Shown here: piece after piece, positions 27,040-40,167 of the stretch
Layout: each line of letters begins with the position of its first letter
How positions within the stretch are numbered: position 1 is the stretch's first letter
IMG/VR virus record: IMGVR_UViG_3300044633_001398
Coordinates: 1-42,041 of that record
Source of the DNA: a virus
DNA length: 42,041 nucleotides
Reading direction: 5' to 3' (one strand)
Program-made: the position numbers and the translations under genes
Notes under the pieces: model-generated
What the model was told of the DNA's origin: nothing
Database searches by the model: none
Seen by the model: only the letters and a program-made list of their open reading frames with translations

Positions 27040-28196
27040 CAGAGAAAATCCGGCTCGAAGGAGCCCAACGCGCCTGCACGCCAGAAGAAACTCTGGAGCG
27101 CATGCGCCCGCATTTCCACACCGCAGGCATTACCCGCCTCGCCGAGATCACCGGGCTCGACCGCATCGGTATCTGTGTGGCTCAGTGTATGCGGCCCGAC
27201 GCCATCGTTCTGGCCGTGGATTCCGGCAAAGGAGCCACCATCGAAGCCGCCAAATGCTCGGCCATGATGGAGGGCTTCGAGCGCCATGTCGGTGAGACCA
27301 GCCGCCCGCCCCACACCCTGGCCTCTGCCGCGCAACTCGGCGACCAAGCCGAGACCCGCCTGCCCATGATCAAAGGCGCGGTCTTCCACCCCTATGCCGT
27401 CATGCCCTGGACCGAGGTTTTGGGTCTGCGCAGTGGAGCGCCCCGCATGGTGCCCACCGACGCCGTGCGACTCATCGCCCGCCCCGATCCCGCTCCGCTG
27501 ACCAGCCTGCCCTTTGCCTACACCAGCAACGGCCTTTCCTCCGGCAATACCTACGCCGAGGCCGTCGCCGGGGGGCTCTACGAGTGCATAGAGCGCGACT
27601 GCACCGGCATCGCCCAGCGGCGCTTGCAGGATTTTCCACGCGTCGATCTCGACACCATCACCGACCCCACCGTCGCCCGCCTCGTCCGCACCCTGCGCGA
27701 GGCCGATGTCACCCCGGTCCTCATCGATGTCACCAGCGACATCGGCGTGCCCGCCTACATTTGCTATCTCATCGACTGCGACAAGGGCTTCGGAGTCAAC
27801 AAAGGCTACGCCGCCCACCTTGACCCCGCCATCGCTCAAGCCCGCGCCATCACCGAGACCATCCAAGCCCGCGCCGTCTGGATCGCCGGGAGCCGTGACG
27901 ATTTTTTCCATCACCTCCATGAGAAGGTCAAATCCACCGACTCCGCTGCGGTCCTCGCCCGCCTCTACAAGTCCGCCACCATCAGCGCCAACGCCCATCC
28001 CGACCGCTCCGGAGAGACCTTTGAAGCCGACATCGACACCCTCCTCGATCTCCTCGATGCCGCCGGTATTCCCGAGCCGCTGGTTTACCAATTTACCCAC
28101 CCCTATCCCTGCTCCGTCGTGCGAGTCATCGTTCCGACCCTCGAAGGCTACACCTTCGACTACGCCCAACCTGGCCCCCGCGCTCTTTCCAAATGA
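27024..28196 (+). CDS. ycaO: YcaO-domain protein (predicted backbone thioamide synthetase)
   Basis: A 390-aa YcaO enzyme, which uses ATP to activate a peptide amide oxygen. Family motifs are present in order: SGKGATIEAAKCSAMMEGFE (67-86), SNGLSSGNTYAEAVAGGLYE (168-187) continuing to CIERDC, QARAITETIQARAVWIAGSR (272-291) followed by DD, and the C-terminal PGPRA (383-387). It lacks the PxPxP end of azoline-forming YcaOs and has the end seen in TfuA-linked members. I chose ATG 27024, overlapping the previous gene by 16 bases; an in-frame extension to 26880 lies inside that gene. Its stop overlaps the ThiS-like start. With TfuA and ThiS adjacent, thioamidation is the most likely reaction. The substrate is unknown. 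Confidence 0.93.
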   Translation: MVLELTEKIRLEGAQRACTPEETLERMRPHFHTAGITRLAEITGLDRIGICVAQCMRPDAIVLAVDSGKGATIEAAKCSAMMEGFERHVGETSRPPHTLASAAQLGDQAETRLPMIKGAVFHPYAVMPWTEVLGLRSGAPRMVPTDAVRLIARPDPAPLTSLPFAYTSNGLSSGNTYAEAVAGGLYECIERDCTGIAQRRLQDFPRVDLDTITDPTVARLVRTLREADVTPVLIDVTSDIGVPAYICYLIDCDKGFGVNKGYAAHLDPAIAQARAITETIQARAVWIAGSRDDFFHHLHEKVKSTDSAAVLARLYKSATISANAHPDRSGETFEADIDTLLDLLDAAGIPEPLVYQFTHPYPCSVVRVIVPTLEGYTFDYAQPGPRALSK

Positions 28197-28459
28197 CACT
28201 CAAAGTTGCTGACTTCCACACCCGCTTCACCGACGGCCTGCGCGAAATCATTTGCCCTGCGAAATCCATGGAAGAGCTCATGGATCACTTGGCAAAAATT
28301 TTCCCAGCCTACCACGCCGCCGTTTACTCCGACGGCAAAATCCCACGCTTTTACATAGTTTTCCGCAACGACGACGACATCCGCTACCTCGATGGCATGA
28401 AGACCTCCCTCTCCGAAAACGATACCGTCACCATCATGACCGCATTCGCCGGAGGCTAA
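28193..28459 (+). CDS. ThiS/MoaD-like sulfur-carrier protein
   Basis: An 88-aa ubiquitin-fold protein. The C-terminal half reads DDDIRYLDGMKTSLSENDTV then TIMTAFAGG. It closely follows the MoaD/ThiS pattern (xDIRxLxGxxTxLxxxDxVxIxxxxxGG), ending exactly at Gly87-Gly88. Family members are adenylated on the last Gly by a ThiF/MoeB-type enzyme and carry sulfur as a thiocarboxylate. Here the protein is flanked by ycaO (4-base overlap) and tfuA (3-base gap), so it is the likely sulfur donor. No activating enzyme is encoded in the window. A role in host thiamine or molybdopterin synthesis is less likely in this context. Confidence 0.9.
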   Translation: MTLKVADFHTRFTDGLREIICPAKSMEELMDHLAKIFPAYHAAVYSDGKIPRFYIVFRNDDDIRYLDGMKTSLSENDTVTIMTAFAGG

Positions 28460-35637: not shown

Positions 35638-36789
35638 TCAAAGCGGATCCGGCTCGCTCACCAAATCATGGTAGTGCGCCCAGGTAGTCTGGAACGATCC
35701 ATGCCGCAGCATCCGGCTCGCCACCTCCAATCCGCTCCGCATCGCAATCTCCGCGCCAAATTGCCCCCGCAGCGCATAGCTCACTTTGTTTCCAGGTCGA
35801 TTTTTTAGAAAGCCGTGCGCCCATTCATTGATCGTCCGCTGATACAAATCCTCAGCATCCGTCTTGTGCTTGCGCGGAATCACAAAATCTTCCGACTCTG
35901 GAAATGCTCCGCGCAATTGCTCCAACAATTCCCGCCGTGCCGGAACCACCCCGTCGCGGCCCTTGGGAACATAGTAGGAGCCATCCGATAGTTTTCTTTT
36001 CACAAACTCCAACACCGGCCCCTTCGTTCCCTCGCGCACCCAAGCCCAGCGCAACTCCATCGTCTCGTTGTTCCTCAAACCGCACCACCGCATCAACGCA
36101 AACACCGCCCAAATTTTTCGATCCTCCTCCTTCTTGCTCTTCCGCAACTTCTCCGCAGCCTCCTCCATCGCCACAAGCTGCTTCGGGTCGATCACCCGAA
36201 ACGGCTCCGCCTTGCCAGCCTCCGCCCCGCCCCGCCGCCGAGTCGAAAACGCCACCGCTCGAAACCCCGCCACATCGGGCAAATGCAAATCCTCGTAATA
36301 GTGCATCACTCCTGGTGCAAACATCGACTTGATCGAGTTGACATCCGACCGAATCCCCGCCGCCGCCCGCCCCGCCGCCATTTGTTTCTCCACCCATTTC
36401 CGAAACCGATCCGCCCTCAAAACCTCATTGATCCGGCGACCTCCCGCCGCCTCCGTCTCAAACTCCTCGCGCACATACCGCTCAAACCTCCCCGCGACTG
36501 CCCGCGCCGACTTCGGCCCCTTCTCCTCCCATTTTTCCGCCACCTCTTGCACGGTAGCGAACCCCTGCCGCCTCGACACCTCCTCTTGGGTCTTCGTGTC
36601 ACCCGTCTTGATGGCCTCCGCCAAACGCTTCGCCACCTTCAAAGCCGTCGGCTTGTCCGATTTCGTTCTAACATCGGTAGACCGCAGATACCGCCTGCCC
36701 CGATACTGGCAGCGATAATACCAAACATGCCGGGATTCGTCCCAGAACACCGAAACCTCGCCCCATTTTCGTTGTGATTTTTCTTTCAT
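35638..36789 (-). CDS. int: tyrosine-recombinase integrase
   Basis: A 383-aa phage integrase. The N-terminal arm-binding and SAM-like core domains cover about residues 1-165, and the catalytic domain follows. Visible catalytic residues: Arg239 in CGLRNNETMELRW, a Lys in VPKGRDG (about 276), Arg341 in SYALRGQFG, His363 in MLRHGSFQTTW and the nucleophile Tyr373 in HYHDL. The usual His of the HxxR box is Tyr338. I chose ATG 36789; a GTG 24 bases upstream is inside an inverted repeat. The attP lies about 120 bp upstream. It should integrate the phage into a host tRNA-Lys gene. Confidence 0.92.
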   Translation of the reverse strand: MKEKSQRKWGEVSVFWDESRHVWYYRCQYRGRRYLRSTDVRTKSDKPTALKVAKRLAEAIKTGDTKTQEEVSRRQGFATVQEVAEKWEEKGPKSARAVAGRFERYVREEFETEAAGGRRINEVLRADRFRKWVEKQMAAGRAAAGIRSDVNSIKSMFAPGVMHYYEDLHLPDVAGFRAVAFSTRRRGGAEAGKAEPFRVIDPKQLVAMEEAAEKLRKSKKEEDRKIWAVFALMRWCGLRNNETMELRWAWVREGTKGPVLEFVKRKLSDGSYYVPKGRDGVVPARRELLEQLRGAFPESEDFVIPRKHKTDAEDLYQRTINEWAHGFLKNRPGNKVSYALRGQFGAEIAMRSGLEVASRMLRHGSFQTTWAHYHDLVSEPDPL

Positions 36790-36817
36790 AAAAGTGGCCA
36801 CTCCGCAGACCACTTTT
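36790..36817 (-). promoter_or_regulatory. inverted repeat at integrase start, operator-like
   Basis: AAAAGTGG (36790-36797) and CCACTTTT (36810-36817) are separated by 12 bases. The palindrome GTGGCCAC (36794-36801) overlaps the left arm. It begins next to the integrase ATG, so a protein or RNA fold here could block translation or transcription of int. Confidence 0.45.
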
Positions 36818-36908
36818 CACTAAACCACAACCGAACCAATTTTCCACATTTAACAGAACAACCAGTGTAAAACCCTCTAAATGAACCCTCCGATCAACAA
36901 TCAGGAAG

Positions 36909-36950
36909 TGCGCCCCCCGGGACTCGAACCCGGAACCAATTGATTAAGAG
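36909..36950 (-). other. attP core: 3' half of a tRNA-Lys(CTT) gene
   Basis: On the minus strand the segment reads as the anticodon loop CTCTTAA, the 3' anticodon stem, the T arm (CCGGG, TTCGAGT, CCCGG) and the acceptor 3' end with GGGGCGCA. The bases before the loop do not pair with the anticodon stem and no 5' half is present, so it is not a complete tRNA. Tyrosine integrases of this kind recombine at the 3' part of tRNA genes, and the phage copy restores the host gene. Confidence 0.85.
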
Positions 36951-37012
36951 ACTGGCGTTCTTTATTTGAAAATGAATATCTTACCAAAACCGCCTGCCGC
37001 TTTGCATGTCGG
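36951..37012. other. attP flank without a gene
   Basis: AT-rich sequence between the tRNA-like core and the small minus-strand ORF. It may hold integrase or excisionase arm sites. I see no clear repeat. The open frame running through it on the minus strand crosses the tRNA segment and is not a gene. Confidence 0.4.
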
Positions 37013-37183
37013 TTAAATAGGATTTGCTGGCTCTTTTCCGTCCACCAGGGCGGGTGGAAATTCGCGGTCTTCGGCAGCAAGGTTTTCATCGGTGGTGACT
37101 GAAATGTCGAGCTCGTCGATGAACTTGGCAAGGGCTTCAAGGGCCGGTTCGCTTTTGGGTGAGTTCTTGGGGCGTGTGGGCAT
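37013..37183 (-). CDS. possible small acidic protein, 56 aa
   Basis: A minus-strand ORF beginning MPTRPKNSPKSEPALEALAK, then FIDELDISVTTDENLAAEDR, ending PANPI. It overlaps the end of the lipoprotein gene by 47 bases in another frame. The acidic helix-forming centre looks like a real small protein, and it would be the last gene of the lysogen operon. Support is limited to composition and position. Confidence 0.35.
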   Translation of the reverse strand: MPTRPKNSPKSEPALEALAKFIDELDISVTTDENLAAEDREFPPALVDGKEPANPI

Positions 37184-37574
37184 CTTTGATGAGGGCGTCG
37201 AGAAGAGGATTGTGGCGGTATGAGGGGCTGACGATTCCGATGTTTTGCGGGATGGGTTCGTTGCTGCCGAACATCTCCCAGTTCATGGAGCCGTCGGGCC
37301 AGCGGGCGCGGAATTTCTGGCTCATGCGTCCGTTGTAGGGCCAGCGGGGATAGGTGTTCGGATAGGGCTTTTGCGGTGTGACTTTGATGGTGAGGGGAGC
37401 CGCGCCAAGGACATTTCCGTTCCAATCCACAATGCCGCCTGCGGGGCTGGTGTGGATGGTGATTTCGACGGGCTCGGGCGCGGGCTCGGCGCGTCGAACT
37501 TGCGGTGGTGGTTCGGGAGTCGCGCAACCCGACAGCATCGCCGCCAGAGCTAGGATTGATGCGGGTCGGCACAT
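37137..37574 (-). CDS. lipoprotein with PEGA-like domain
   Basis: A 145-aa protein with signal peptide and lipobox MLSGC (Cys17). After a Pro/Glu-rich spacer it has ITIHTSPAGGIVDWNGNVLG then APLTI (about residues 38-63), which matches the short beta PEGA domain. The rest (WPYNGRMSQKFRARWPDGS...) is unknown. It would sit on the inner face of the outer membrane or at the cell surface. In the repressor-led operon it is probably made in lysogens and could block superinfecting phages or alter the envelope. It starts four bases after the stop of the membrane protein. Confidence 0.7.
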   Translation of the reverse strand: MCRPASILALAAMLSGCATPEPPPQVRRAEPAPEPVEITIHTSPAGGIVDWNGNVLGAAPLTIKVTPQKPYPNTYPRWPYNGRMSQKFRARWPDGSMNWEMFGSNEPIPQNIGIVSPSYRHNPLLDALIKDAHTPQELTQKRTGP

Positions 37575-37982: not shown

Positions 37983-38303
37983 CTATGATTTCGGCCCGGT
38001 GCCCTTCTTGTAGCGAACTTGGGTTTTCGCTGGTGAGGGTCCAGGCACGGGCAGTTCGCAAATGTTCCCAGGGTTTTCCTGCATCATTGTGGTTTCGGGC
38101 GCATGAAACGATGTCGTGGGCAAAATATTTCTAGTCCTGGCAAACTCGGAGGGGCTGACAATTTTTTTCTCCATTCCGAAAAATTGTTCGAGAGCTTGCA
38201 CGACTACAGCGGAGCGTTTGATTCCCTGGCTGTCCGCGTAACCGTCGACCAAATCATACAGTCGCTTTGACATCCTGGTGTCGATTTTCCTGTGGTCTGA
38301 CAT
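37983..38303 (-). CDS. ribbon-helix-helix regulator, candidate lysogeny repressor
   Basis: A 106-aa protein. Residues about 7-45 (IDTRMSKRLYDLVDGYADSQ then GIKRSAVVVQALEQFF) fit a ribbon-helix-helix DNA-binding fold: one beta strand and two helices, acting as a dimer. The remaining 60 residues are Pro/Thr-rich and probably disordered. It is divergent from a second RHH gene at 38398, with TCTGACA-type half-sites at its own start codon. It is the first gene of the minus-strand operon, so it probably regulates itself and the early + genes. The role as repressor is inferred from layout. Confidence 0.7.
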   Translation of the reverse strand: MSDHRKIDTRMSKRLYDLVDGYADSQGIKRSAVVVQALEQFFGMEKKIVSPSEFARTRNILPTTSFHAPETTMMQENPGNICELPVPGPSPAKTQVRYKKGTGPKS

Positions 38304-38312
38304 AGTCGGACA
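38296..38312. promoter_or_regulatory. operator pair over the minus-strand RHH start
   Basis: TCTGACA (38296-38302) and TCGGACA (38306-38312) lie exactly 10 bp apart and overlap the start codon of the leftward regulator. Tandem half-sites one helical turn apart suit RHH dimers. Confidence 0.55.
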
Positions 38313-38397
38313 TTCGCCGTCGATGTTCGAGGGGGCAACAAATATTTTTATTTTTTTCCATTGACTTGTCTGACACTTTCAGAAAATATCTGACGCC
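38313..38397. promoter_or_regulatory. divergent promoter/operator region of the switch
   Basis: Between the divergent RHH genes is an AT-rich core (38337-38360), then TTGACT (38361-38366) as a possible -35 for the rightward gene. TCTGACA (38369-38375) and TCTGACG (38389-38395) are 20 bp apart, with an inverted TTTCAGA between them. The rightward ATG at 38398 has no clear Shine-Dalgarno sequence, so the message might be nearly leaderless. Confidence 0.6.
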
Positions 38398-38592
38398 ATG
38401 ACAGAAAAACCAACACACACACGACTGTCTGCGCGGCTCCCAGAGCCGCTTTGCGGGCGGCTCCGCGAGGAAGCAGCTAAACGGATGTGCAGCGCGTCAG
38501 ACATTGTTCGCATGTCGCTGCTCAATTTTTTTGAAGCTAATTGTCAGAAAGTTTCTGACAACTCCAAGCAAATCGAGGAGGTGCCGGTATGA
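38398..38592 (+). CDS. ribbon-helix-helix regulator, rightward (Cro-like role)
   Basis: A 64-aa protein. THTRLSARLPEPLCGRLREE then AAKRMCSASDIVRMSLLNFF matches the Arc/CopG-type ribbon-helix-helix: a beta strand with RLSARL and two helices. It is divergent from the RHH gene at 38303 and probably competes for the same TCTGACA-type sites. A perfect 10+1+10 palindrome containing these half-sites lies inside its coding region. The stop overlaps the next ATG at 38589. Confidence 0.75.
   Translation: MTEKPTHTRLSARLPEPLCGRLREEAAKRMCSASDIVRMSLLNFFEANCQKVSDNSKQIEEVPV
38541..38561. promoter_or_regulatory. perfect palindrome, probable RHH operator within gene
   Basis: TTGTCAGAAA, one central G, then its exact reverse complement TTTCTGACAA. 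It contains the TCTGACA half-site in both orientations and lies within the rightward RHH gene, where bound repressor could block elongation. Confidence 0.7.
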
Positions 38593-39054: not shown

Positions 39055-39270
39055 TTACTTTAGTAGGGCGTAAAGAGAAACAGCCAGAGAAAGGATGGAG
39101 ATGGCTATGGCGATCCAGTTTTGGACGCGGGATACAGCGTTTTTTCTCCGCTCAATCTCGTAATGATGAGCAAGGCCGGGATAGGAATCGGTTTTATATC
39201 CAGCAGTATCCCGCAGAAGCTGGGCTGTATTCTTTTTCTGAATTGTGGAAAGAAGGTCGTCTTCTGTCAT
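39055..39270 (-). CDS. membrane-anchored protein on the opposite strand, 71 aa
   Basis: From the ATG at 39270 it reads MTEDDLLSTIQKKNTAQLLR, then DSYPGLAHHYEIERRKNAV, then WIAIAISILSLAVSLYALLK. It has an amphipathic helical N-terminus and a C-terminal membrane helix with two lysine ends (tail-anchored). Residue use is convincing, while the overlapping + strand frame looks like its shadow. A TTG 33 bases upstream is a less likely start. It is an isolated, oppositely oriented small gene in the early region, in the manner of a phage moron. No function can be assigned. Confidence 0.65.
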   Translation of the reverse strand: MTEDDLLSTIQKKNTAQLLRDTAGYKTDSYPGLAHHYEIERRKNAVSRVQNWIAIAISILSLAVSLYALLK

Positions 39271-39581
39271 CGGAGGAACTGGCTCAGATCGAGGACCGGT
39301 CAAGGAAAGTCGCCAGCAGCCTTCTGTGGTCTGACCGGGTGCCAGTAGATGACCTCTCGGACATGGGGGCTCTGTGCGTGTGGGATGTGCCGCGCCTCAT
39401 GGGAATGATTTCACTGCTTTCGAGTGAATCGGAAGCGGCCCCAAGCAGTCAAGCGCAGGAGGGCGGACTATGAGCGAGGGCTATCTTTTCCGCAGTGAGG
39501 GAGTGTGGAGGACTTGGGCGACCTGCCTGACGCTGGCAAACACGGGGAACTACGACTTGGCGAAGCGGTGGTATGGGGGCT
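39271..39581. other. gap between two minus-strand genes
   Basis: About 310 bases without a gene I can support. The leftward gene's promoter should lie near 39271-39340. On + there is an open frame (39042-39473) whose last 65 codons are not opposed by a gene. Its end carries AAGCGCAGGAGGGCGGACTA just before an ATG at 39470, and a near copy of this precedes the real start at 39937. Confidence 0.4.
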
Positions 39582-39884
39582 TCAGTATGCTCCGCCGCCT
39601 CGGACGGAGTAATCCTCATCGGTTTGGCGGCCACATTTCTCGCACCGATGGGTTCCGTCTGGTTGACGAATGGATAAGCCGGGTGGAAACGCGCAGTGGC
39701 ACAGGTCGTATCCAAGGTGGTGCGCCGATTCTGCCCTGGCTATGGCGAGCTGTGCTTCGGCTTGCTGCAATGTGCGCTGGAGTGCTTCTCGATCTGGGGA
39801 CTTTGGCAACAAGTCGCGGGCTGATCGAAGTATCGAAAGGGCTTTTTCAACATAGAGGAACCATTCTGCGGGGTTGTCTGCCAT
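39582..39884 (-). CDS. coiled-coil plus zinc-ribbon protein on the opposite strand
   Basis: A 100-aa protein. Residues about 5-55 form helices with QRTLQQAEAQLAIARAESAH. Then LGYDLCHCAFPPGLSI and RCEKCGRQ (about 59-85) give a C-x-C...C-x-x-C zinc-ribbon pattern. The order 'LxxAExxLAxAxxxxAxxLGYxLCxCxxPPxI' is a recurring bacterial family of unknown function, often near mobile elements. The minus-strand sequence is convincing and the opposing + frame (39470-39940) is probably its shadow. It is probably a moron-type accessory gene. Confidence 0.7.
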   Translation of the reverse strand: MADNPAEWFLYVEKALSILRSARDLLPKSPDREALQRTLQQAEAQLAIARAESAHHLGYDLCHCAFPPGLSIRQPDGTHRCEKCGRQTDEDYSVRGGGAY

Positions 39885-39936
39885 CCGGGCAGTGCATCAA
39901 AGCAGGAGCCAAAGCGCAAGCGCGGGAGGTCGGACT

Positions 39937-40167
39937 ATGATTGAGAAGCATTATTCGCTGCGCGAGCTTGGGCGGGTGCTTGGCATCAGCCATGTGACTT
40001 TGAGCCATCGCGTGGAGGAGGGTGATCTCCGAGCGGTGCGGATCGGGAAGAGGGTGCTGATCCCTGAGTCGGCGGCCTCGGATTGGCTGAATCGCCATAC
40101 GGTGAATGCCGCCGCAGGGGTGCGTCGTGGCCGTGGGGCTGCCCCGCTGGCTGCTTCTTTTTCTTAA
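39937..40167 (+). CDS. excisionase-like HTH protein, 76 aa
   Basis: MIEKHYSLRELGRVLGISHV, then SHRVEEGDLRAVRIGKRVLI and PESAASDWLNRH: a MerR/excisionase-type helix-turn-helix with a beta wing (residues about 5-52), plus a basic tail (GVRRGRGAAP). The upstream GGGAGGT supports ATG 39937. Such proteins act as Xis factors that direct integrase to excise, or as small activators. Distance from attP (about 3 kb) permits either. It is similar in fold to the gene at 6855. Confidence 0.75.
   Translation: MIEKHYSLRELGRVLGISHVTLSHRVEEGDLRAVRIGKRVLIPESAASDWLNRHTVNAAAGVRRGRGAAPLAASFS

Follow-up and report, generated by a model that had tools for sequence, protein, structure and literature searches.

Phage lysogeny switches are mostly known as helix-turn-helix (HTH) systems. 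The phage lineage described here, which has no match in the phage collection searched, appears to do the same job with ribbon-helix-helix (RHH) proteins. RHH phage regulators are in themselves known already (P22 Mnt/Arc, SSV1 F55), as are abutting RHH half-sites and changing immunity types. In the temperate phage P22, the immI region holds two RHH repressors on one regulatory region (PMC8022706, PMC10516654), and F55 of SSV1 is a small RHH protein that maintains lysogeny by binding to a number of short repeated sites, found both at early promoters and at its own promoter (PMC9608457). In the RelB operator, two half-sites of 12 bp directly adjoin on one face of the DNA, and each takes up one RHH dimer (PMC2812701); Cluster A mycobacteriophages exhibit several immunity types in one family, in which repressor and sites have diverged in step (PMC6550527). 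The RHH protein of the Bacillus phage B83 is a partition adaptor and was set aside as a precedent (PMC6669507).

Organization of the locus

The window, i.e. the whole stretch of DNA that was analysed, is a virus record of 42,041 bases. Two genes diverge in it from a gap of 94 bp with an A/T-rich stretch: the left RHH gene (37,983–38,303, minus strand) encodes a 106-amino-acid protein with the ribbon KIDTR, and the right RHH gene (38,398–38,592, plus strand) a 64-amino-acid protein with the ribbon RLSAR. The divergent RHH pair reported in the preliminary description is confirmed, with starts at 38,303 (minus) and 38,398 (plus) and with family profiles for both proteins. The left gene is oriented toward the integrase side and occupies a CI-like position, for which we propose a lysogeny or immunity repressor; the right gene is the first of the early operon, in a Cro-like position. 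On the leftward side, the left gene is followed by a membrane protein and a PEGA-like lipoprotein, then by a tRNA-Leu and a tyrosine integrase (35,638–36,813, minus strand; Pfam Phage_integrase E=1.1e-6, PHROG integrase E=4.5e-17). Rightward of the pair are small genes, an AlpA/excisionase-like HTH_17 protein in the early operon (39,937–40,167, plus strand, the longest ORF being 39,874–40,167; HTH_17 E=3.1e-6, PHROG excisionase E=4.9e-6), a nuclease-like protein and a terminase-small-like protein. The AlpA-like gene served as anchor for comparing loci.

The window opens with an exonuclease gene, followed by a DnaB-like helicase gene; because the same genes run on from one another without a break in the close relative L002, the record probably represents a nearly complete genome in permuted form. 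Several features of the surroundings were recorded along the way. The tRNA-Leu (CAA anticodon) is complete (36,908–36,993, minus strand), lies directly upstream of the integrase gene and is probably part of the attachment site. The PEGA-like lipoprotein gene (37,137–37,574, minus strand), near the left gene, lies to the left of the pair in 51 loci and is a possible conversion or exclusion gene. Two minus-strand ORFs (39,055–39,303 and 39,582–39,884) lie within the rightward early region and are missing there from L002, and a ThiS-family (ubiquitin-like) protein is encoded among the late genes (28,193–28,459, plus strand, Pfam E=2.8e-8).

Both proteins belong to the RHH superfamily

As single sequences searched against Pfam, the right protein gave a weak RHH_1 match (E=0.011) and the left protein none. 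Family profiles built from 28 left and 27 right homologues and compared with solved RHH proteins matched, among others, the antitoxin Rv0298 (E=1.8e-6) and CopG (0.005) for the left family, and VapB26 (3.9e-6) and CopG (5e-4) for the right one. The AlphaFold models of both proteins resemble CopG and Arc by Foldseek probability in a PDB search, in which no E-value was below 0.01 and none is thus significant; these models, which are of monomers, have two helices after an N-terminal segment and no assigned strand. Both proteins are members of the RHH (MetJ/Arc) superfamily, the fold being assigned by homology, and the statement that a fold other than the HTH stands on both sides of the gap holds. 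The ribbon of the right protein is conserved in its family. The alignment of the left proteins also revealed a C-terminal tail (37,983–38,090 in the window), of the SPAKT..RY..KS or KSSHPAG type, which is common to different RHH classes, as if it were exchanged separately from the RHH class.

Conservation of the pair in temperate relatives

The close relatives L002, L003, L007 and L008 possess the same pair together with TGTCWGACA-type sites; two further candidates of the first scan, L004 and L005, were rejected as chance matches in another frame. To widen the family, the neighbouring terminase-small-like protein was used as query, which yielded 80 loci; the testable set consisted of the 61 loci in which 1.5 kb or more was available upstream of the AlpA-like gene. 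The divergent RHH pair is present in 61/61 of these loci (51 recognized by the first profiles and 10 by an iterated profile), which are not all independent, some being near copies. In these relatives the pair sits at the junction of the integrase side and the early operon, and a leftward integrase was found in 37 of the 39 pair loci having at least 3.5 kb on the left. No INPHARED phage record matched either RHH protein, the integrase or the neighbour protein.

This constancy bears on the idea that the pair is a toxin-antitoxin or plasmid-partition regulator that came to lie here by chance. Antitoxins and CopG are indeed the nearest solved sequence relatives of the two proteins, but no toxin match was obtained among the neighbours tested by Pfam, no ParA was identified beside the pair in the window, and a pair kept at every testable locus makes such an accident highly improbable.

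Two relatives were recovered by the genome scan, each from a Verrucomicrobia assembly. In one of them, L089, located in a contig of a Chthoniobacter MAG, host-like genes (SMC-like and thioredoxin-reductase-like, by reading the translations) stop at a 3' fragment of a tRNA gene, after which the phage genes start, including the RHH pair. L089 thus looks like an integrated prophage whose far end would lie past the contig, and since one relative is a prophage, the family is temperate; an integrase and an integrated relative were both found. The tRNA fragment (6230–6290 of L089), at the prophage border, is the 3' part of the gene, with the 5' part missing; it is apparently a tRNA-Thr according to its CGT loop, and ARAGORN gives no call. 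The left operon of L089 also has a PIN-like ORF (by reading), which the window lacks.

In another reading, the main lysogeny repressor would lie elsewhere in the genome, and the pair would be a secondary regulator like P22 immI (Mnt/Arc). This reading is suggested by the presence of two RHH repressors in immI too (PMC8022706; fold link, PMC10516654), and a repressor of an unrecognised family might lie elsewhere in the phage. We nonetheless consider it quite unlikely. No antirepressor-like gene (ant) was identified beside the pair, the genes downstream being small, AlpA-like, nuclease-like and terminase-small-like; in almost every relative the pair is placed between the integrase and the early operon, whereas immI belongs to the late region; and no lambda-type repressor was detected in the window with the models used, over the combinations of ORFs and libraries that were scanned. 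There, no HTH_3 match exceeded the cut-off (the best, of 13.7 bits, is in the AlpA-like gene) and no S24 repressor was found, so that the conventional HTH repressor named beforehand as the observation that would speak against an RHH switch was not encountered.

Operator boxes around and within the pair

The operator unit is a nine-base near-palindrome, TGTC-N-GACA, which recurs in three clusters with a centre-to-centre spacing of 10 bp. O_L (38,294–38,312), which covers the left start codon and the bases just upstream, is made of two boxes, GGTCTGACA and AGTCGGACA, 10 bp apart, and similar box pairs are also found in relatives. O_R (38,367–38,395) has three boxes, TGTCTGACA, TTTCAGAAA and TATCTGACG, with the same 10-bp spacing, and ends 2 bp short of the right start codon. 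Directly before it is a -35-like TTGACT (38,361–38,366, plus strand), and nearly all relatives have a TTGAC or a TTGTT/TTGC element ahead of the operator. Because a sigma-70 promoter scan returned no full match, and none at O_R, we infer the promoter positions from this conserved TTGAC-like element. O3 (38,541–38,561) lies inside the right gene at its 3' end and forms a perfect inverted repeat of the 10+1+10 type, TTGTCAGAAA-G-TTTCTGACAA, in which two boxes (38,542–38,560) are spaced 10 bp, and the relatives of groups A and B have box arrays at the equivalent place in their right gene. A single box-like CGTCAGACA inside the right gene (38,495–38,503) is probably due to the conserved coding sequence ASDIV.

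The preliminary description had reported four half-sites of the TCTGACA type. Those at 38,296 and 38,369 are exact, while those at 38,306 (TCGGACA) and 38,389 (TCTGACG) are near matches differing by one base; the 10-bp and 20-bp spacing proposed for them survives as a phased array, from which the box at 38,377 and the third cluster at 38,542–38,560 had been missed. The whole-window search for the half-site, suggested as a check, gave nothing unusual: exact TCTGACA occurs 5 times against 2.95 expected, a number reached by 21/100 shuffles. This count was dropped as a signal, and the absence of window-wide enrichment made the phased nine-mer necessary, the unusual feature being the clustering and phasing of the boxes and not the number of heptamers. 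Between 38,281 and 38,600, the nine-mer TGTCNGACA has nine boxes with at least 6/8 matches against 1.5 expected, and six with at least 7/8 matches against 0.14 expected; none of 5000 simulated regions matched either count, although the resulting probabilities are optimistic, because the consensus was picked after inspection of these sites and of the relatives. Throughout the window, the only 10-bp-spaced pairs scoring 14/16 with this consensus are 38,294/38,304, 38,367/38,377 and 38,542/38,552 (the next best score 12), and the best triple, at 38,367, scores 20/24, the maximum in 300 simulated windows being 18. As the same sites shaped the consensus, independent support for the boxes comes from their conservation in relatives. 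In L002, the three-box O_R array differs from that of the window at hardly any position other than the box centres (T-A-T replaced by A-T-A), a swap that, in this one comparison, is what a symmetric dimer needing an A/T centre would allow.

Operator types follow the ribbon of the left protein

The relatives have several operator types, and the type follows the ribbon residues of the left protein. Ribbon triples were defined as the positions equivalent to the DNA-contact residues of Arc, which we take from established knowledge, and were aligned by eye. The left triple K-D-R goes with TGTCNGACA, N-S-R with TGTAACA and Q-S-R with ATCACAAA. Five other triples have a common TTCT-NNNN-AGAA frame with a class-specific centre: TTCT-ATAC-AGAA for V-S-T, TTCT-AATT-AGAA for N-S-T, TTCT-TATA-AGAA for L-S-S, TTCT-TTTA-AGAA for I-S-S and TTCT-CACG-AGAA for S-S-S. 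The exception is L067/L068, where the triple S-S-T is accompanied by TTCC-AATT-GGAA and not by an S-type operator. For most non-K classes, the motif is found only in the gap, or nearly so, within 5–17 kb of the locus; for TTCTNNNNAGAA, 28 of 32 occurrences fall in gaps, which amount to 7.9 kb of the 732 kb of pair loci (1%). Many TTCTNNNNAGAA-type loci display no clear O_L, and autorepression is therefore not universal. Two further observations concern the gaps: the leaders of L025, L030, L050 and others, which belong to the TTCTNNNNAGAA groups, have a short inverted repeat of the CTGGGGTGAATGCCCCAG type between the operator and the right gene, and the O_R core GAATCACAAA is oppositely oriented in L017/L088 and L075/L013 at otherwise corresponding positions.

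The covariation of operator and left ribbon suggests, indirectly, that the DNA would be read by the paired strands of the left dimer. Among right proteins at least 75% identical, the median operator score is 25 when the left triple is the same and 8 when it is different. In a regression over all pairs, right-protein similarity keeps an independent effect on the operator (coefficient 0.19, P=0.006) about equal to that of the left ribbon (0.20), the left helices having 0.43. As this matrix regression did not cleanly separate left from right, the argument rests on near-identical recombinant pairs.

Natural recombinants

Three settings combine a right protein that is 97–100% identical with an operator core that varies along with the left ribbon. 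In L055/L054 and in L043/L075, both genes are 87–100% identical per 30-bp block outside an exchanged stretch of about 140 bp, which contains the left ribbon, O_L and O_R. The left ribbons of L055/L054 are NFSIR or QFSVR, the rest of the left gene is 93–100% identical per 30-bp block and the right gene is identical; the same exchange of about 140 bp occurs in L043/L075 against a different right protein. In L058/L053, the DNA of the right gene and the leader are identical, and the operators and left genes differ. Such changes of the operator in step with the left ribbon are as expected if the immunity type had been switched among these related viruses. Since the ribbon and the operators adjoin, their joint inheritance by recombination could give part of the covariation without contact.

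These recombinants bear directly on whether the locus is a true analogue of CI/Cro, with both RHH proteins acting on the same boxes with opposite preferences for O_L and O_R. The divergent layout with shared operators would fit such an analogue, as would the ribbons of groups A and B, which are alike in having a basic first residue and a last Arg (K-D-R on the left, R/K-S-R on the right), and the independent association of right-protein similarity with the operator. We hold it unlikely, because a nearly unchanged right protein accompanies changing operator cores in all three settings, and because the TTCTNNNNAGAA types combine a nearly constant right ribbon (mostly x-Q-Q/K) with a core tetramer that exists in several forms. 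There is therefore no evidence that the right protein reads the boxes, and the comparative data favour the left protein alone as operator reader. The CI/Cro layout of the preliminary description thus stands for the divergent RHH genes and the operators over both starts, and is not supported for the implied competition of the two proteins for the same half-sites.

The right protein could instead be an antirepressor, inactivating the left one through mixed dimers or otherwise; this is a refinement compatible with the left protein being the lysogenic repressor. The right gene heads the early operon and its product is indifferent to the operator type. RHH dimers share one two-stranded ribbon, and mixed dimers would therefore lose operator recognition. 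We give this reading a limited chance, given that the conserved ribbon of the right protein suggests DNA binding of its own.

Proposed mechanism

We consider it probable that the locus serves a temperate phage as its immunity (lysis-lysogeny) region, with the left RHH protein as lysogenic repressor acting at the phased boxes. Binding, repression, the direction of the switch and the roles of O3 and of the right protein are set out here as we infer them. Dimers of the left protein would bind side by side on tandem boxes spaced 10 bp; at O_R this would silence the early operon to the right, and at O_L, for groups A to C, it would limit expression of the left gene itself. A roadblock or a loop may be contributed by O3, within the right gene. 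The right protein, whose gene comes first in the early operon, probably acts against the lysogenic state, though not by reading the variable operator bases; since these bases do not follow it, it would read something else or act without reading. Of the lysis-lysogeny switch first proposed for this DNA, the CI-like left half is thus well supported by the comparison of sequences, and the Cro half is not. More tentatively, all elements may combine into an RHH-only primary switch, in which the left ribbon sets the immunity type, types change when a cassette of about 140 bp is exchanged, and the right protein is an operator-independent antagonist, acting for example by mixed dimers.

Many operator types in otherwise near-identical phages amount to a natural mutagenesis experiment on DNA recognition by RHH ribbons. 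The same set informs how superinfection immunity changes, and both questions are directly testable.

Comparison with known systems

As in lambda CI/Cro, the genes are divergent, operators with phased repeated boxes lie over both starts, and the early operon is on one side with lysogeny and integration on the other. Unlike in lambda, both proteins are RHH and not HTH, there is no S24-type cleavage domain, and nothing indicates that the two proteins read the same bases. P22 immI also has a pair of RHH repressors on one regulatory region, and its Arc protein, like CopG, ranks among the best structural matches of the two proteins. However, immI is a secondary immunity region that lies in the late part, controls an antirepressor and stands beside a lambda-type primary region, whereas the present pair lies between the integrase and the early operon, with no antirepressor identified and no lambda-type repressor detected. 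F55 of SSV1 resembles the left protein as a small RHH lysogeny regulator with repeated short sites, as proposed here, but it belongs to an archaeal virus, is a single RHH protein and not one of a divergent pair, and has no reported family of operator types. The RelB operator resembles the 12-bp TTCTNNNNAGAA arrays of the relatives, RelB serving toxin-antitoxin autoregulation, unlike a phage switch.

The Cluster A mycobacteriophages, with a different repressor and many dispersed sites (stoperators), are comparable in that immunity types occur within one family and repressor and sites change together; here, by contrast, the motifs stay within the gap, with groups A and B having them in the right gene as well. 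Set against these systems, and provisionally, on a partial coverage of the literature, what appears to be new is a combination: the primary switch of a phage lineage is apparently a conserved pair of divergent RHH genes, and it comes with many operator types exchanged as small cassettes.
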